A DNA stretch of 64,000 nucleotides from Gracilinema caldarium DSM 7334 (lineage in GTDB: Bacteria > Spirochaetota > Spirochaetia > Treponematales > Breznakiellaceae): the NCBI RefSeq assembly GCF_000219725.1, contig NC_015732.1:1426001-1490000 (forward strand), read 5' to 3'. A model generated the notes under the pieces. The model saw only the letters and a program-made list of their open reading frames with translations, did no database searches and had not been told where the DNA came from. Position numbers and translations under genes: made by a program. Positions 17,025 through 24,917 of the stretch are shown here, piece after piece; positions within the stretch are counted from its first letter, which is position 1, and every line of letters starts with the position of its first letter.

Positions 17025-17513
17025 ATGATTTCATTTATTCCGTTACGTACAGGGGATTTGTCAGCTTTTTTTGAAAACCCTGTTTTTTTATCGGCGATCA
17101 CAAGTCTTATTTTTGCACAACTCTTGAAAGCAATTATTGTACTCTTAAAAAATACTAAAAAATCTGCTAAAGAAATCGTAGCAACCCTGCTATGGAAAAC
17201 CGGTGGTATGCCATCAAGCCACTCTTCGCTGGTAACTGCCCTGGCTACCTCAGTTGCTTTTAAGGAAGGAATAGGTTCCACTTTGTTTATTGTAACCCTT
17301 TGTCTTGCCCTGATTGTGATTAGGGATTCTATGGGAGTACGGAGATCCGCAGGCTTACAAGCTAGGGCGCTGAATCTTTTAGGTAAACAGGTTGGCGATC
17401 GGCTTAACATTGAATATCATCAGGTTAAAGAAATTCAGGGCCATGCACCACTTGAGGTCCTGGTAGGTTCCCTTTTGGGTATACTCATTGCTGCAGCCTT
17501 TGCGCTTCTGTAG
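17025..17513 (+). CDS. DUF212 (divergent PAP2 / acid phosphatase-related) membrane protein
   Basis: This 162-aa membrane protein belongs to the DUF212 family related to PAP2/vanadium-haloperoxidase phosphatases. It keeps the family hallmarks KTGGMPSSHSSLVTALATS and IRDSMGVRRSAGLQARALN, with hydrophobic helices near the N terminus, around 90 and at the C terminus. A role in lipid or isoprenoid phosphate turnover is possible but unproven for the family. It lies 14 bases upstream of the next membrane-protein gene and may be cotranscribed with the Rnf-like operon. Confidence 0.8.
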   Translation: MISFIPLRTGDLSAFFENPVFLSAITSLIFAQLLKAIIVLLKNTKKSAKEIVATLLWKTGGMPSSHSSLVTALATSVAFKEGIGSTLFIVTLCLALIVIRDSMGVRRSAGLQARALNLLGKQVGDRLNIEYHQVKEIQGHAPLEVLVGSLLGILIAAAFALL

Positions 17514-17527
17514 GTGATTTTTTCATC

Positions 17528-18943
17528 ATGAAGTGGATCCGGGTTTTTTGGTTTTTCGCACTCCTCTATATTTTTGGGTTTGCAGGGATCCTTCTATTTA
17601 GCTTTAGTATAAGCAATACTCGACAGCCCGCTTCAATGCTTGTTGTGAGTACTTCCGATATCATTAGTGAGTCCTTTGTTTTGGATCGTTTGTCTGATGC
17701 TGGTTTTCATCATGTGGTTTCAGAGTCTAACCAATGGGTGTATATTGATGATTTTGAGGGACCGAAATCCATACCACTTAAGGATTATTATGATTGTATT
17801 GAACCTTTAGATCCTCGGAATGATGGGTATGCAGATTTATTAAAAACTATTTTTGTATCCAATGGTGTACGGCGATATTTTATTACAATGCAGGGTCTGT
17901 ACCCTTGGAATTCATCAGATACGCTTGTAAGAAAAATAGATAAGATCCTTGTAAATGTAAAACCAACAGTTCAGTTGTATATGACTAATACTGTAGTATT
18001 TCCCTGGTGGCTTATTGGTTTGGTTTTAATGAGTATCTTGGTATATACAGCTTTCAAGTTAGGTTATAAAAAGGAAGTCTTACTTTCTATTCCCGCAAGC
18101 TTAATTCTTTTACCATCAGGTCATGGAAGTATACTGAGTATCGGCCTACTAGTGTCATTACAAATTTGTCTAGGACAATTTCAACATGATATCTTGATTC
18201 GATATTACCATAATGAATTTGATGCTGTTCGATCTCTTATTCGATGGTACAAAGGATCTCTTATTTATGGAATTGTGTTAGTAATGGGTTATTTTTTAAA
18301 TGCTTATGTCTTTACCATTAATTGGATTTGTACTATAGGGGCATTGGTTATACATCCTATGACAGGAATTATAGTTGTTTTACTACGCTTATTTTATTAT
18401 CATGAACTTGGCCATCATCATTTTTTGCCCATAGAGCTCGTGGGTACAACAAAAAAACGTATTGATCCTGTACGAGCTATAATACCCTTTGCTTTTGGTG
18501 CAATAGGTTTTTCCATCTTTTTATTGATTATTCCAGTTAATCCATCAAATAACCTCATGAACAATTCCATTTCAATTCCGTTGACATTAGACCAATATCA
18601 GGCTCATCTTAATACTCAATCTCGTTTTTCTAGTACATCGCTTCATCGCAAAACATCCGAAGGGTATTCCTATAATACCTTTATGCTGGATTCGGATGGT
18701 CTACTATCAAACGAAAAACCTGTCCCGCATGAAAATACATATATAAATTTAGCGATACCACCACTGGAATCTCTACTATTGTCTTTGAATAGTTCTAGCA
18801 TAATAGATCATGAAACTATTGGAAATGTGATATATCTTATGATTGTTATTGCTGGTGCGTTCATTTTATTGTATCGTGCGTCGCATGGTACATTATTACT
18901 TATGTATAAGTCTGGATATTTAGATAAACGGATTGCAGCATGA
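17528..18943 (+). CDS. Unknown multi-spanning membrane protein preceding the Rnf-like genes
   Basis: I do not recognise a family. The protein has an N-terminal membrane segment (about 8-30), a hydrophilic domain of roughly 125 residues, five or more membrane segments between about 157 and 345, a hydrophilic loop to about 430, and a final membrane segment. An HELGH sequence (292-296, within HELGHHH) at the end of a membrane segment formally fits a zinc-metalloprotease HExxH, but no further site-2-protease motif is visible. Its stop overlaps the rnfC-like start (ATGA). It is AT-rich like the genes downstream, and was probably recruited to that membrane complex. Confidence 0.6.
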   Translation: MKWIRVFWFFALLYIFGFAGILLFSFSISNTRQPASMLVVSTSDIISESFVLDRLSDAGFHHVVSESNQWVYIDDFEGPKSIPLKDYYDCIEPLDPRNDGYADLLKTIFVSNGVRRYFITMQGLYPWNSSDTLVRKIDKILVNVKPTVQLYMTNTVVFPWWLIGLVLMSILVYTAFKLGYKKEVLLSIPASLILLPSGHGSILSIGLLVSLQICLGQFQHDILIRYYHNEFDAVRSLIRWYKGSLIYGIVLVMGYFLNAYVFTINWICTIGALVIHPMTGIIVVLLRLFYYHELGHHHFLPIELVGTTKKRIDPVRAIIPFAFGAIGFSIFLLIIPVNPSNNLMNNSISIPLTLDQYQAHLNTQSRFSSTSLHRKTSEGYSYNTFMLDSDGLLSNEKPVPHENTYINLAIPPLESLLLSLNSSSIIDHETIGNVIYLMIVIAGAFILLYRASHGTLLLMYKSGYLDKRIAA

Positions 18944-20256
18944 AAATATATCATTTTCCGCAAGGTGGACTCAAGTTAGAGGATGCTACAGTTCCTCCTG
19001 CAGATACCAGTACCATAGCATTTCTTCCAACTTATGCCTTGATTTCGCTTACCCAACACCCTGGAAAGGAAGCTTTGCCCTTGGTTGATACTGGAGCTTT
19101 CGTTCAAGAAGGGATGCTTATTGGACGGGGCCAAGGAATGGGATCTGCAAATATTCATGCATCTATTCCAGGGCAGGTGGTCAAAATTGTGTCTTGGAAA
19201 TTAGCTGATGGTAGAACTACCCAGGGAGTATTAATTCGCTTAGAAGGCTCTTTTGAAAAATTGGGGAAAAAAAAGGATAACTATAATTGGCAGGGGCTTA
19301 GCAGCTTTGATTTGTTGAGAATTATTTCAGAAAAGGGTATTGTAGAAATGGAAGAGCCAGGTAAACCCTTTATAGATATAATACGGGATGCAACAGGACA
19401 ATCAAAAAAAGTGACCCTTGTTGTAAGAATGATTTTTGACGACCCATGGCTCGTAGCCGACTATGTGCTTGCACAGGAACGCTTGGATGAAATTCTCATC
19501 GGTTCAGCAATTACTTCAAAAGCATCTAATGCAAGTACTATTGTTTTCGTGATTTCTAATGATGAAATTGAGTTAGCAGAACGGATTACAAGTCGTTCAA
19601 AAGATTTGGGTATTCAGGTTACTGTGATTATTACTGGATCCCGTTATCCGCAGAGAAATAAACGGGAACTTGAAACTGTTCTGAAACAATATCAAAAAAA
19701 TGAATCTATTGATTTGGGGTCATACTGTATCTGTAACCCTGCAACCTTGGCAGCTGTGTATGACGCAGTTGTACAGAATAAACCAATACTTGAGCGGTAT
19801 GTTGCTGTTGGTGGCGGCGCTATTAAGCATCCTCAGGTCTTGAGGGTAAGAATAGGTACAAGAATCGGTGATCTTATTTCACAATGTGGAGGTTTTCTCA
19901 TTCAGCCAAAAAAGATTGCCACAGGATCACCGCTCAAGGGAATGATTATACAGGATCTTGATGAACCGATAACCAAAACTACCATTGCGATTGTAGCTCT
20001 GACTGAAGAGCAAATTGGTGGTGAAACGATGAATGACTGTACCAATTGTGGTGAGTGTAGATCTGTGTGTCCTGTTAGGTTAGATCCTGAATATTTATAT
20101 AAATTAGCTTTACTTGGACGGGATTCTGAGGCATTACTTCATAAAGCACATAGTTGTCATGGATGTGGATGTTGTGAAGTTGTTTGTCCTTCCCGGTTAC
20201 CCTTAAGTTCAACTATTAGGGTGTCAATTAAGCGAGGAGCGCAGCAGGCTCTATGA
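18940..20256 (+). CDS. RnfC-like protein, lacking FMN/NADH-binding motifs
   Basis: The protein opens with the RnfC/NqrA-like biotinyl/sandwich domain (FPQGGLKLED, and IHASIPGQVVKI) and ends with two ferredoxin-type 4Fe-4S motifs, CTNCGECRSVCP (about residue 366) and CHGCGCCEVVCPS (about residue 407). The flavin/NADH part that in RnfC reads GxGGAxFPT and NxxECEPY is not recognisable; the matching place reads GIVEMEEPGKPF and RMIFDDPWLVADY. Electron transfer through Fe-S might persist, but NADH oxidation looks lost. It is translated from an ATGA overlap with the upstream gene and overlaps the rnfD-like gene by four bases. Confidence 0.8.
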   Translation: MKIYHFPQGGLKLEDATVPPADTSTIAFLPTYALISLTQHPGKEALPLVDTGAFVQEGMLIGRGQGMGSANIHASIPGQVVKIVSWKLADGRTTQGVLIRLEGSFEKLGKKKDNYNWQGLSSFDLLRIISEKGIVEMEEPGKPFIDIIRDATGQSKKVTLVVRMIFDDPWLVADYVLAQERLDEILIGSAITSKASNASTIVFVISNDEIELAERITSRSKDLGIQVTVIITGSRYPQRNKRELETVLKQYQKNESIDLGSYCICNPATLAAVYDAVVQNKPILERYVAVGGGAIKHPQVLRVRIGTRIGDLISQCGGFLIQPKKIATGSPLKGMIIQDLDEPITKTTIAIVALTEEQIGGETMNDCTNCGECRSVCPVRLDPEYLYKLALLGRDSEALLHKAHSCHGCGCCEVVCPSRLPLSSTIRVSIKRGAQQAL

Positions 20257-21308
20257 ATAGTATTTATGTTGCACGAAAACCCTTAATACACATACGTGAT
20301 GCTACCAGCTACCGGATGTGGCTTGTCTCTAGTGTAGCTCTGCTTGTTATTATACAATCAGCCTTGCATGATAACTACGCATCCTTGATTGTAGCTTTAG
20401 TAGCAGTTGTTTCTGCAATAGTAATGGAACTTGCCATTAATGGGGTTAGAGGTACCTTTACTCTTAATGATGGAAGTGCTGTAACCACAGCCCTCATTCT
20501 TTCTCTGCTTATGCCAAATTCCATCCATCCGGTGATTGTTTCTTTAGGGGCAATTTTCGCAATTGGTGTTGTGAAGCATGTATATGGTGGTCTAGGTACA
20601 AACTGGTTAAATCCTGCTTTAGGCGGTTGGTTATTTACCCTTGTTTCTTGGCCAGAGCGTTTTAGCGAAGCCCTGAATGATTCAGTTTTACAAACCTTTT
20701 ACCAAGCCATTGAACGAGGAGTTATTGATGTTTCAGGGTCACCCCTCGCGATTTTAAAAATTGTTGGTTATAAGGTCAGTTCACAGGATAGTATATTAAC
20801 TGGCATCGTTAATCATTCCTTGTTTTCGCTTATGAATGCAGAACTACCCTCCGGTTATTTTGATTTTTTTTCTCTTTCTAGTCCCGCGATTATTGCCGAT
20901 CGTGGAATTTTAATGCTACTAATCGGAACGATAATTTTAACGGCCTTTCGAATTAATAAACCGCTCATTCCGGCTATGTATATAGCAAGTTATCTATTCT
21001 TAATCCGCCTTTTTGGAGCCATTCCCTTTGGTGGATCCTTTGGTAATGGTGATATGATATTTGGTTTATTACACGGCGGAACGCTTTTATCTGCTTTTAT
21101 TTTGGCAACTGATCCTGGTACCGGAACGAAATCCTATGAGATAGGTATCCTAGTAGCAGGAATTGCGGCGATTTTTGGATTTATATTCAGATATTTAGGA
21201 GGGGTCCCTTATGGAGCTCTCTACGGAATCCTTATAACGAATACGCTTATTCCAACTATACGCTCTCTAGAAATAAGATTGTTTTATACAAATCGGAGAT
21301 CCCTATGA
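20253..21308 (+). CDS. RnfD/NqrB-like membrane subunit, altered flavinylation site
   Basis: Family features of RnfD are present: about ten membrane segments, NWLNPALGGWLF (about residue 120), and the C-terminal LHGGTLLSAFILATDPGTGT with GGVPYGALYGILI. The loop where Rnf/Nqr proteins carry FMN on a Thr (SGATPL-like) reads DVSGSPLA (about residues 159-166), one residue shorter and with Ser where the flavinylated Thr is expected. Flavin attachment is therefore uncertain. It overlaps both neighbours by four bases. Confidence 0.82.
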   Translation: MNSIYVARKPLIHIRDATSYRMWLVSSVALLVIIQSALHDNYASLIVALVAVVSAIVMELAINGVRGTFTLNDGSAVTTALILSLLMPNSIHPVIVSLGAIFAIGVVKHVYGGLGTNWLNPALGGWLFTLVSWPERFSEALNDSVLQTFYQAIERGVIDVSGSPLAILKIVGYKVSSQDSILTGIVNHSLFSLMNAELPSGYFDFFSLSSPAIIADRGILMLLIGTIILTAFRINKPLIPAMYIASYLFLIRLFGAIPFGGSFGNGDMIFGLLHGGTLLSAFILATDPGTGTKSYEIGILVAGIAAIFGFIFRYLGGVPYGALYGILITNTLIPTIRSLEIRLFYTNRRSL

Positions 21309-21733
21309 AACAAGTCGTTAAGGATATTACCATTCTTATGACATGGATCGCTGTTCTTTTTATTTGTTCTTGGTTGCTTGTATGGGTTACTTCGGATATT
21401 AGAAATGCCGCGTTGATCGATGACTGTAACACGAAACTAATAAAGCAAGGAAATAATATTTTGGTAAAACAAATCATAAGCGCTCATGATGGGACTGTAC
21501 TATTCTCATCCAACAAAACTAATAAACATGCCTTGCTTTCATCTATAATCACCACTTCAGGCACTTCGTTGAACCTAATAATCCTAGATGCTTCGAATCG
21601 AATAGATGATCTTTACCCTATAGATTCAAGTTCAAGAATAATAAATCAGCGTACTGATCCAAAAGTGATACACTTTAATGTACGTACGCTGTTATCGAAT
21701 GCGGTTTTAAAAGAGAAAAGGAGTAAGCAGTAA
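21305..21733 (+). CDS. RnfG-position protein, short and without flavinylation motif
   Basis: The gene sits where rnfG lies in C-D-G-E-A-B operons and encodes one N-terminal membrane helix (about 8-28) plus a small extracytoplasmic domain, like RnfG. At 142 aa it is about 60 residues shorter than usual, and the C-terminal SGAT[ST] sequence that takes FMN is absent; the closest stretch is TTSGTSLNL. The assignment rests mostly on position and topology. It overlaps rnfD-like by four bases and ends two bases before rnfE-like. Confidence 0.55.
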   Translation: MKQVVKDITILMTWIAVLFICSWLLVWVTSDIRNAALIDDCNTKLIKQGNNILVKQIISAHDGTVLFSSNKTNKHALLSSIITTSGTSLNLIILDASNRIDDLYPIDSSSRIINQRTDPKVIHFNVRTLLSNAVLKEKRSKQ

Positions 21734-21735
21734 TT

Positions 21736-22374
21736 ATGGATAAGATTGAATCTCATCCTTTCTGGGGTAAACATTCTCCTCTGGCTCAACTATCCTACAT
21801 ACCGTTTCTTCTTGGTGCTTCATCTCGTCTATCAATTGCAATTATGAGTTCAGCCGCACTTTCCTGGGTTTATATGCTATCGAGTGCTACCATACTTGTA
21901 ACAAACAGGTTCATTCCATCCATATTTACATCATTTATTCATGTGTTGATTTGTAGTTTTTGGTCCCTTGTGTTTGGTCTTATTGTATATTTCTTTTCTC
22001 CTGTCTTGTTTTATGAAATGCAATTTCCTCTGATTTTTACTGCAGTTCTTTACATTATCTCTGGAATTGGAAACTCTCTCGAGGTTGATACGCTCAGTAA
22101 TGCAATGAAAAAAACAGTAATACAAACACTTGTTGTAAGTTTTATTATTCTCATCTTTGCTTTAATAAGAGAGACTTTTGGATTTGGCGCCCTCAGTTTG
22201 CCTACTCGAGAGGGTATTTCGGAAATCCTTACTTCAGAAATATCTAGTGATCTTGCTATCAGAAGTATTGCTGCTACCAGTGGAGGACTGATGTTATTAG
22301 GATTTATAATCGGTTTTTATCGAATCATAAGAGAAATGTTAGTCACCTATTATTCCCAGCGGGAGAAAAACTAA
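21736..22374 (+). CDS. RnfE-like membrane subunit without the conserved cysteines
   Basis: This 212-aa protein has six predicted membrane segments and RnfE-like stretches: PLAQLSYIPFLLGASS, PLIFTAVLYII and FALIRETFGFGALS, the last matching the conserved IRE-xxGxG region. In canonical RnfE/NqrD a Cys precedes Pro in the first helix and another follows Asn in PLIVVNC; here these are Ile22 and about Val104. The only Cys is residue 73, elsewhere. The intramembrane 2Fe-2S ligands thus appear lost. Its stop is joined to the rnfA-like start. Confidence 0.75.
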   Translation: MDKIESHPFWGKHSPLAQLSYIPFLLGASSRLSIAIMSSAALSWVYMLSSATILVTNRFIPSIFTSFIHVLICSFWSLVFGLIVYFFSPVLFYEMQFPLIFTAVLYIISGIGNSLEVDTLSNAMKKTVIQTLVVSFIILIFALIRETFGFGALSLPTREGISEILTSEISSDLAIRSIAATSGGLMLLGFIIGFYRIIREMLVTYYSQREKN

Positions 22375-22937
22375 TGTCCTTTCTGTTAACTTTAAGCACA
22401 GCCTTTTTCCTTTTTAATGCCATTATCCAAAATGGTTTTGGCATTGAGTATGCAAGAAATCCGAGAAATGCTCTTATTCCTATAATGGCGATGATTTTAT
22501 CGAGCATCGTGAGCTGGTCTATCCATACCTTTCTATTGAAACCTATTGGTTTTGGAGTATTTGGAGTATTTCTTATATTTCCCATCAGTGTTGTATGCAG
22601 TTTGTTTGTAGCTAAAATTTCGATCCTATTCAAGAGAGGAAGCAGGGAAGACCTTGATCCAACATGTTTTAGCGGATTTAATGGGCTGGCGTTTTTTAGT
22701 GCGTTTCAAATCGTGATCTTTGCACAATCTTTCTTACAGGCCCTCATTATAGCTCTGGGAGGAACTTTAGGCTTTTTATGCATCATAATTCTTTTAAATG
22801 GCATTCAAAAAAGGTCCGAGGTAGAAGCGGTACCCCAATTTTTTAAGGGACAACCATTATTACTCATATCAACAGGTTTAGTATCCCTTGTTTTTTCGGA
22901 ATTACTTCCTATTGTGATACGTATTTTTACAAACTAA
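22374..22937 (+). CDS. RnfA-like membrane subunit without the canonical CP and NC motifs
   Basis: This 187-aa, six-helix protein matches RnfA/NqrE best in SWSIHTFLLKPIGFGVF and in the C-terminal VPQFFKGQPLLLISTGLVSL. The first-helix LGLCP sequence is replaced by FGIEYA, and the ITTNCAVLG loop by SGFNGLAFF, so both usual 2Fe-2S cysteines are missing there, although a Cys occurs a few residues before the second site. It is the last gene of the operon; no rnfB follows. The next gene encodes a GH57-like protein after 138 bases. Confidence 0.75.
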   Translation: MSFLLTLSTAFFLFNAIIQNGFGIEYARNPRNALIPIMAMILSSIVSWSIHTFLLKPIGFGVFGVFLIFPISVVCSLFVAKISILFKRGSREDLDPTCFSGFNGLAFFSAFQIVIFAQSFLQALIIALGGTLGFLCIIILLNGIQKRSEVEAVPQFFKGQPLLLISTGLVSLVFSELLPIVIRIFTN

Positions 22938-23075
22938 ACCCATTATTAAAGTACTTTTGAATATGATACAGAGCTTTTTTTATGTTTTGTTAGAAATCTT
23001 GCTTTTCAGACTGATAATTATGGTCTATTATAAGGAATTAAGAGAATCATACGGCGTTAGAAGTGGAAACTATAT

Positions 23076-24917
23076 ATGAATAAAGTAAAAGTCATTATCC
23101 TTACCCATCATCACGTCCCGTTTGGTTCTTCTGGGGAAGAATTTGAATCCTATTATACGAAAAGACTAAAACCTCTTGTTACCAGCCTTTATAAGGCCCC
23201 TCATTTTTCAATTCTTTTGCATTGTTCAGGAGTTTTACTCGAATGGATAGAAAAACATCATCCTGAATTGTTTATGCTCTTGGAAGAACTGATTAATCGA
23301 AAGCAGATTGAACTATTAGGTGGTGGCTATTATGAACCTGTTTTTCCGCTTCTTTCTGTTACTGACAAGATTGGACAAATAGAATTACTCACTACCTACA
23401 TCAGAAAGCACTTTGGTAAACGTCCACGAGGATGCTGGTTGCCGGGAATGTTCTGGGAACAGAATTATGCTTCTGTTTTAAACACCTGTGGTATTGATTA
23501 CGCCTTTGTCCATTATGATCAATTTTTACATACTAGGAATGATGAAAGCATAAACCATATATTTATAACTGAAGATCAGGGAAAACTTAGTACTCTTTTC
23601 CCGGTAAAGCCTATTGGTTCATGTGATGAGGCTATCGCCTACCTCGACAAGTATAAAACCATTGTAAAAAAAGGAGAGCGAGAGGACCAAATCCTATCTT
23701 TACTGATAAATCTTGAATCTGTGGGTCCAGAAGATACGTATATTGATGAAGTTGAACGCGGTTTTGATTCCTTGTTTGCTTATATTTCCAAGGAATCCGA
23801 GTGTTTTGATTTAACATTACCTATAAAATATCTCAAACAGGATGTAAAGGCCGTTAAAACATATTTAACAGGAGTAAATCCTCGACAAAGTCTCGTTAAA
23901 TATCCAGAAGCAAACGATATTTATGGAAAAATGATTTATGTCCATACCCTGGTAAATCAGCTTAGGGGTGACAAGGCCCGTAAAAAAAATGCCCGGGAAG
24001 AACTCTGGAAAGCCCAGGGTATTGATATGTTTTATATGGATTCATCCAGGGGCATACAGAATAGGATGCTTCGAAAAGCTGTTTATAAGTCTTTACTTGA
24101 GGCCGAAAGAATAACCAGGGAGAAGGGAGTCTTTATTCCCTCTATTCTTACCTTTGATTTTAACTTGGATGGCAAACCTGAATATGTTATACAGGGTAAC
24201 GAAATAAGTTGCTGTATCAGTCAAAAGGGTGCATCCGTATTTGAACTAGACTATTTCCCTGTTGCGACAAATTATACCGATACCTTTAGATTACAAGAGG
24301 AAGGGGGTACTAGGTCCTATAAACGAACCTCTTTCGTAGAATATCTCTGTCCTGCTGGAAGCTCCTTGCATGAAATACTATCGGATAGTCAGAATCGTAA
24401 TCGATTTCTTGGTGACGAATGGTTTACAGAAGAAACAGTAAGTCGTTCACAAAACTCAATTGGTTTTAGTACCGATGGCATAAAAACAAAACCCTTTGGT
24501 ACTATAGAAGTTAAAAAACAGTATTCACTGAAAAAGAATGTGCTCACCGTAAACTATATCTTGATTAACAGAGGTATTGAATCTGAACGATTCACCTTTT
24601 TACCTCAAATAGAATTTTCTTTCGCTGAGTTTTCAACCAGGGCATATCAGTTGTTTGTCCTTCAGGGTGATATAAAAAAAGAACATGACCTGGATGTTTG
24701 GGAAATTCGAAATGCTGATTCTGTTCTTTTTAAGGATTGTGTAAACGATGTGTTAATATCAATAAAATCAGTCATGCCCTTTGATACCTGGCAGTATCAA
24801 GTGTTTGAGCCCCAGTCGGTATATCAATCTACCTGTATTCTTCCGGTTAAAGAAGTTCTGTTGACTCCCGGCGAACAATGGGAAACCAGTTTTCAACTTG
24901 TCTTTGAAAAGCTGTGA
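23076..24917 (+). CDS. GH57-like protein, probably catalytically altered
   Basis: The N-terminal barrel resembles GH57 4-alpha-glucanotransferases: LTHHHVPFG (motif 1), GGGYYEPVFP (motif 2, about residue 82) and CWLPGMFWEQ (motif 3, about residue 120), with a beta-sandwich C-terminal half. In active enzymes motif 3 reads WLTERVWEP, where the first Glu is the nucleophile; here that position is Gly124. The GDDGEKFG motif carrying the acid/base Asp reads INLESVGPED. The protein may bind glucan without cleaving it. It stands between the Rnf-like operon and metG, and shares their AT-rich composition with the former. Confidence 0.75.
   Translation: MNKVKVIILTHHHVPFGSSGEEFESYYTKRLKPLVTSLYKAPHFSILLHCSGVLLEWIEKHHPELFMLLEELINRKQIELLGGGYYEPVFPLLSVTDKIGQIELLTTYIRKHFGKRPRGCWLPGMFWEQNYASVLNTCGIDYAFVHYDQFLHTRNDESINHIFITEDQGKLSTLFPVKPIGSCDEAIAYLDKYKTIVKKGEREDQILSLLINLESVGPEDTYIDEVERGFDSLFAYISKESECFDLTLPIKYLKQDVKAVKTYLTGVNPRQSLVKYPEANDIYGKMIYVHTLVNQLRGDKARKKNAREELWKAQGIDMFYMDSSRGIQNRMLRKAVYKSLLEAERITREKGVFIPSILTFDFNLDGKPEYVIQGNEISCCISQKGASVFELDYFPVATNYTDTFRLQEEGGTRSYKRTSFVEYLCPAGSSLHEILSDSQNRNRFLGDEWFTEETVSRSQNSIGFSTDGIKTKPFGTIEVKKQYSLKKNVLTVNYILINRGIESERFTFLPQIEFSFAEFSTRAYQLFVLQGDIKKEHDLDVWEIRNADSVLFKDCVNDVLISIKSVMPFDTWQYQVFEPQSVYQSTCILPVKEVLLTPGEQWETSFQLVFEKL

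Follow-up and report, generated by a model that had tools for sequence, protein, structure and literature searches.

What can an Rnf complex still do when nearly all of its electron-carrying sites have been lost and its genes have been kept? This question is raised by an operon of Gracilinema caldarium DSM 7334, located in a 64,000-nucleotide stretch of the genome (NC_015732.1, positions 1,426,001 to 1,490,000) that is referred to here as the window. Since nearly all of the carrier sites are gone and the genes remain, the operon should have a job other than that of the textbook Rnf. Comparison with relatives strongly supports the view that an ancestral Rnf was stripped in steps, yet retained. 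An earlier note on this DNA, made from the sequence alone, described an Rnf gene order C-D-G-E-A without RnfB, followed by a GH57-like gene, and this description was confirmed by intact open reading frames (ORFs) and profile matches. All five frames are intact and lie on the + strand, with junctions that are mostly 4-base or 1-base overlaps. The conserved unit extends upstream, as two genes at 17025-18943 also belong to the block. The features are as follows, in window positions (FMN, flavin mononucleotide; NADH, reduced nicotinamide adenine dinucleotide; AF2, AlphaFold2):

17025..17513, + strand: membrane protein of divergent PAP2 type (DUF212) that opens the conserved block, at a position common to most Spirochaetia loci examined (PF02681, 1.4e-42)
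17528..18943, + strand: 'MEM', a fast-evolving membrane protein with no assigned family, overlapping rnfC by 4 bases; orthologs at the equal position in most loci
18940..20256, + strand: RnfC-like protein, both 4Fe-4S motifs kept, FMN/NADH motifs lost (TIGR01945, 7zc6_C, motif table)
20253..21308, + strand: RnfD-like protein with both riboflavin ligands (N124/D248) and a changed covalent-FMN pocket (PF03116, 7zc6_D, site table)
21305..21733, + strand: RnfG-position protein with one transmembrane helix, a periplasmic beta domain of reduced length and no flavinylation motif (AF2, VIA-align)
21736..22374, + strand: RnfE-like protein, both [2Fe-2S] cysteines lost (hhalign, cysteine table)
22374..22937, + strand: RnfA-like protein, both [2Fe-2S] cysteines lost (TIGR01943, hhalign, cysteine table)
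22938..23075, + strand: rnfB site of canonical and partly stripped relatives, between rnfA and GH57, empty here
23076..24917, + strand: GH57-family glycoside hydrolase, conserved downstream neighbour, also a neighbour in other orders (PF03065, 3.2e-28)

Two samples of the window's family were compared. The 20 loci read first, among which some contigs are cut or have no matches for certain genes, mostly display the full block of PAP2-like, MEM, C, D, G, E, A and GH57, often together with methionyl-tRNA synthetase (MetRS). The second sample comprises 80 further named loci, mostly from termite-gut Treponema genomes, plus Breznakiella homolactica. Gene order is conserved in all 80 of these loci. 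The earlier note had considered that an rnfB might be fused or close by; ORF and profile inspection from C-D-G-E-A to GH57 revealed none within the window operon, and the gene is absent from 79 of the 80 loci, being present in one.

The RnfC-like protein lies above the curated TIGR01945 cut-off (248 bits versus 245.95) and can be aligned over nearly its full length to the solved RnfC 7zc6_C (1.2e-57). Both CxxCxxCxxxC motifs, the 4Fe-4S motifs, are retained. GIVEMEEPGKP stands at the position of GxGGAxFP, and FDDPW at that of ECEPY. Among the 76 complete RnfC sequences from the 80 loci, both CxxCxxCxxxC motifs are found in 76, GxGGAxF and E[CS]EP in none, and two new family-wide motifs are seen instead, FDDPW (73/76) and YPQ (76/76). 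The single sequences of RnfE and RnfA match PF02508 weakly, and RnfA also matches TIGR01943 at 1.4e-10. When family alignments were compared to canonical spirochaete proteins by hhalign, the match was 98.4% for RnfE (E 9e-15) and 98.1% for RnfA (E 9e-14), and the identity of both is therefore secure. The four [2Fe-2S] cysteines of RnfA and RnfE are absent from the window proteins. The earlier note had stated that RnfC lacks the GxGGAxFPT and ECEPY flavin/NADH motifs, that RnfE and RnfA lack the cysteines of the intramembrane 2Fe-2S centre, and that the RnfG-position protein is short and has no SGAT[ST]; each of these losses is borne out by the alignments and sequences.

The RnfG-position protein has no match in Pfam or NCBIfam profile searches, no consistent Pfam family was seen across 50 family members, and hhalign of its family against canonical RnfG gave a probability of 1.9%. 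No SGA[TS] flavinylation motif was found in it, and the FMN_bind matches of its own genome are located elsewhere. An AF2 model of high confidence (predicted local distance difference test, pLDDT, 91.4) gave weak Foldseek matches; its top VIA-align match was the RnfG of C. tetanomorphum, 7zc6_G, with a Z of 6.5 that is below 8 and not decisive (root-mean-square deviation, rmsd, 7.3; 135 residues aligned), and three further RnfG chains are within the top 14. The second-best VIA-align match of the model was the Borrelia periplasmic protein BB0365 (Z 6.2, rmsd 3.2). The upstream MEM has no Pfam or NCBIfam match, and no PDB fold could be matched with confidence to its AF2 model (pLDDT 78), although absence there proves nothing.

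RnfD (351 aa) matches PF03116 at 8.4e-56 (189.9 bits versus a cut-off of 27.7) and the solved 7zc6_D at 2.3e-18, and falls below the TIGR01946 rnfD cut-off (130.6 versus 207.05). The riboflavin ligands N124 and D248, in C. tetanomorphum numbering, are kept. Across the RnfD of the window's family (n=26), N124 is found in 26/26, and position 248 is D in 19 and E in 7. Both ligands are also kept throughout groups f4 and f5 and in the single case f35 described below. The statement of the earlier note that only the 4Fe-4S motifs of RnfC survive thus does not hold. The note also pointed to SGSPL in place of an SGATPL-like flavinylation site. Ser is kept at this position, as it is in 9/19 canonical spirochaete RnfD, and ApbE can use Ser for flavinylation (PMC12052999), so that SGSPL alone is weak evidence of FMN-site loss. 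The FMN surroundings are changed as well, with R130W, E185D and loss of S284 in the window protein. In the family (n=26), R130 is replaced by W, A or F and E185 by D in 25/26; R130 is lost in all Treponematales except group f2, and the FMN-linker segment is shortened or deleted in several other genera. These pocket and segment changes would be a stronger sign of an altered covalent-FMN site than SGSPL.

According to the comparison of relatives, the history of the locus can be followed through several stages. Nineteen loci of other Spirochaetia orders contain the block PAP2-like, membrane gene, rnfCDGEAB and GH57, with intact Rnf motifs. GH57 is directly downstream in 17 of them, and in the remaining two the contig or stretch ends first. 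In a tree of RnfC plus RnfD, the window groups with this syntenic Rnf lineage, and the canonical copy of the same genome (at 712 kb) lies outside; support was 1.0 for the window's family, the values for other groups referring to non-clade sets and being left unused. Shared synteny and tree placement together show that, in descent and in position, the window operon is the ancestral spirochaete Rnf. Relatives with canonical sites, considered by the earlier note as a possible sign of a decaying pseudo-operon, do exist at the equal locus in other orders; this points to a locus inherited and retained for a long time, and not to a pseudo-operon of recent date.

Other families of Treponematales have the same block, most often with rnfB between A and GH57, and their losses are graded. 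In group f2 the RnfA/E cysteines and SGATPL are still present, as is an ESEPY motif; groups f4 and f5 show mixed partial retention of cofactor sites; nearly all sites are lost in f3 and f1. The losses within the order were thus stepwise: RnfC lost its NADH/FMN site, RnfD and RnfG their covalent-FMN sites and RnfA/E the [2Fe-2S] ligands, and in the window's family RnfB was lost as well. The earliest appear to be those at the NADH/FMN site of RnfC, judged from the motifs. Gene order, reading frames and the two 4Fe-4S motifs of RnfC were kept meanwhile, together with the riboflavin ligands of RnfD in the window's family. A 1,139,633-base Treponematales genome (G045), which we take to be Treponema pallidum, has the stripped form as its only Rnf-type locus (L133 5431-12067: PAP2, C, D, a G-like frame, E, A and GH57); MEM was not found in this genome. 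Its RnfC has eight cysteines and no FMN/NADH motifs, and its RnfA and RnfE have no cysteines at the expected places. The stripped Rnf has thus been kept by the whole order, apparently including the agent of syphilis. Separately, one locus of a genome labelled as another order (L164 5002-11383, G211; group f35) contains a stripped block without a G or B match, with the RnfA/E cysteines lost and eight RnfC cysteines. Independent stripping is not claimed for it, as its long branch falls among Treponematales in the tree and its placement is uncertain.

The remaining sites can be compared to the electron path of the solved Rnf, which runs through RnfB, the [2Fe-2S] centre of A/E, the FMN of G, the FMN and then the riboflavin of D, the two 4Fe-4S clusters and the FMN of C, and NAD+ (PMC12174285; PMC11889175; PMC9588780). 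The survivors in the window's family, the riboflavin site of RnfD and the two 4Fe-4S sites of RnfC, are consecutive carriers on the cytoplasmic side. Because they are adjacent in the normal chain, they are proposed to form a short relay for electrons on this side of the membrane. The importance of the riboflavin site in the working enzyme is seen in A. woodii, where N123A or D249A abolishes activity (PMC11889175). With a probability of roughly 0.42, we infer from the residues that the stripped Rnf would be a cytoplasmic-side half-chain, a redox relay or sensor that is no longer a pump. Ferredoxin or flavodoxin, as a soluble carrier of low potential, would exchange electrons with the exposed RnfC clusters, and these may equilibrate with riboflavin in RnfD. 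The complex could then serve for redox sensing or gating, or hand electrons to a putative membrane partner, and A, E, G and MEM would make up its non-redox membrane part. Ferredoxin:NAD+ pumping is not expected, because there is neither a transmembrane route via RnfG and RnfA/E nor an NAD(H) site. The wider proposal, that the whole order converted its Rnf pump into a new complex with riboflavin and two 4Fe-4S clusters as sole carriers, acting as a sensor or gate or feeding a membrane acceptor, is put forward tentatively.

Several points weigh against such a relay. Its cofactor content and activity are read from residues, its donor and acceptor proteins are putative, and conservation of a ligand reflects pressure on the residue and not flavin binding as such. 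Moreover, in the RnfD of Treponema (f3), N is present in 11/12, but only 4/12 have D or E at position 248. Riboflavin is therefore doubtful in that group, and the relay may fail as an order-wide explanation.

The earlier note instead proposed a new non-canonical membrane function as ion channel, scaffold or sensor. In a redox-inert version of this view, a channel, transporter or scaffold, loss of the FMN and its loop could let the periplasmic half open, and the 4Fe-4S clusters would be structural only. This idea agrees with the kinship of RnfD to ammonium/urea transporters (PMC12174285) and with an FMN-linker segment that is cut short or missing in several genera. For C. tetanomorphum, D248 was also suggested to serve as a Na+ site (PMC9588780). 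However, N124 is kept almost everywhere along with all eight RnfC cysteines, none of which a pure channel needs, and the A. woodii study found no ion path in RnfD (PMC11889175). A redox-inert complex is thus unlikely. The non-decay part of the note's proposal stands; the proposal as a whole is incomplete, since the riboflavin site and the 4Fe-4S motifs leave a cytoplasmic redox role possible.

Slow decay, with a relic of the ancestral Rnf persisting inside an operon of needed neighbours, was weighed from rates of change. The ratio of nonsynonymous to synonymous substitution (dN/dS) was calculated by the NG86 method against two genomes of the same genus, G002 and G003; the G002 canonical RnfD and G003 canonical RnfC, being cut or mismatched sequences, were excluded from the selection comparison. 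Among the computable ratios against G002, those of C and D were lowest (0.064 and 0.049), and E, A and MEM stood at 0.233, 0.196 and 0.245; the dS of G was saturated and its ratio not computable. Against G003, finite values among the Rnf genes and MEM were obtained only for E (0.22), A (0.25) and MEM (0.21). All are rough bounds, because many dS are near or beyond saturation or not computable. These ratios fit purifying selection on the stripped operon, stronger on C and D. The identity to G002 follows the same pattern (C 0.82, D 0.77, E 0.61, A 0.60, MEM 0.48, G 0.39), RnfC and RnfD being the slowest-evolving Rnf subunits of the operon. The fast change of A, E, G and MEM speaks for decay, as the canonical RnfA of the same genomes is approximately 0.99-1.00 identical, versus 0.52-0.60 for the stripped RnfA. 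So do the repeated loss of cofactor sites, the loss of rnfB, and a split rnfC in one Treponema genome (L119). Against decay stand the order conserved in 80/80 loci, the cysteine motifs in 76/76, intact frames across many genera, finite dN/dS well below 1, the new RnfC motifs and retention in the 1.14-Mb genome. A decaying relic is accordingly quite improbable. The claim of the earlier note that this is not ordinary decay gains from family- and order-wide retention, from the dN/dS it had called for (approximately 0.05-0.25 wherever computable), from the small genome, and from the separate canonical Rnf, the second set it had suggested looking for.

This second set lies on the single 3,239,340-base contig of the own genome, where rnfC-D-G-E-A-B with its motifs is present at about 712 kb. 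An nqrB-C-D-E-F operon without nqrA is found at about 1921 kb (L007 4250-8248), and no PF05896 match exists anywhere in the genome. A search of this genome for an rnfB placed elsewhere gave PF04060 matches to the canonical rnfB and to two long frames of 582 and 728 aa (G000:C1:247091, G000:C1:2707947). With both systems in the cell, hybrid complexes could be imagined in which canonical Rnf or Nqr supplies the missing sites in trans. However, G045 has exactly one PF03116 match (1.6e-18) and keeps the stripped operon without any other RnfD/NqrB relative, and three genomes (G028, G032, G156) keep it with no canonical RnfC found, although these are drafts and not proof. Such hybrids are highly improbable. 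An ordinary Rnf still at work, its cofactors held by other residues, can be set aside almost entirely: RnfC passes the curated cut-off, but the ligands of several cofactors are jointly lost with no rnfB, and removal of single ligand sets kills Rnf activity in A. woodii (PMC11889175).

Redundancy as the sole cause of the stripping was also considered and rejected. Within f4, a second canonical RnfC does not track cysteine loss: among genomes without it, the cysteines are kept in G088 and G038 and lost in G084, G055, G077 and G091, and they are kept in G041 and G130, which have it.

No description of a stripped Rnf was found in the open-licence papers searched. Among the closest known systems, the Rnf of A. 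woodii, C. tetanomorphum and A. vinelandii shares homologous C, D, E and A and a G-like subunit in equal order, along with the two RnfC 4Fe-4S motifs and the RnfD riboflavin ligands. It differs by having RnfB, the FMN/NADH motifs of RnfC, the RnfG flavinylation motif, the RnfA/E [2Fe-2S] cysteines and an unaltered RnfD FMN pocket. Na+-NQR has a homologous B/C/D/E core, and its NqrA is an RnfC relative without redox cofactors (PMC12174285); in contrast, the stripped operon has no NqrF, keeps the Fe-S motifs in RnfC and has lost the [2Fe-2S] and covalent FMN sites. Two-subunit NQR/RNF-like flavinylated systems (Meheust 2021, PMC8238504; PMC10979944) also have an RnfD-like protein with a non-covalent flavin site and no covalent-FMN site. 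Their flavinylated RnfG-like partner and fused NAD-binding domain (PF00175) are missing here, the window RnfD matching PF03116 only, and the stripped operon has C, E and A in addition.

A 'noncanonical RNF' has been proposed as a flavin-driven, ion-gradient-generating energy-conserving pump of Treponema pallidum (PMC7512555). It is probably this stripped locus, as that genome has a single RnfD relative, which is stripped and lies beside PAP2 and GH57. If so, the ligands needed for the pump are missing, and the sole RNF-like complex of the species would not be the proposed energy-conserving pump, which bears on how T. pallidum conserves energy. More generally, the order offers a natural series with intermediates, where a respiratory pump was dismantled cofactor by cofactor and the protein complex kept, which makes it informative on uses of the Rnf scaffold other than pumping.

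Because RnfC passes the curated cut-off, metabolic reconstructions may count the stripped operon as a working Rnf. Two variations of rnfC were also seen. At locus L119 7696-9173, rnfC extends over two overlapping frames, either a true break or a sequence error. Another member of the window's family (G107:C83:15254-17862) carries a tandem pair of RnfC-like genes, both distinct from the stripped RnfC.

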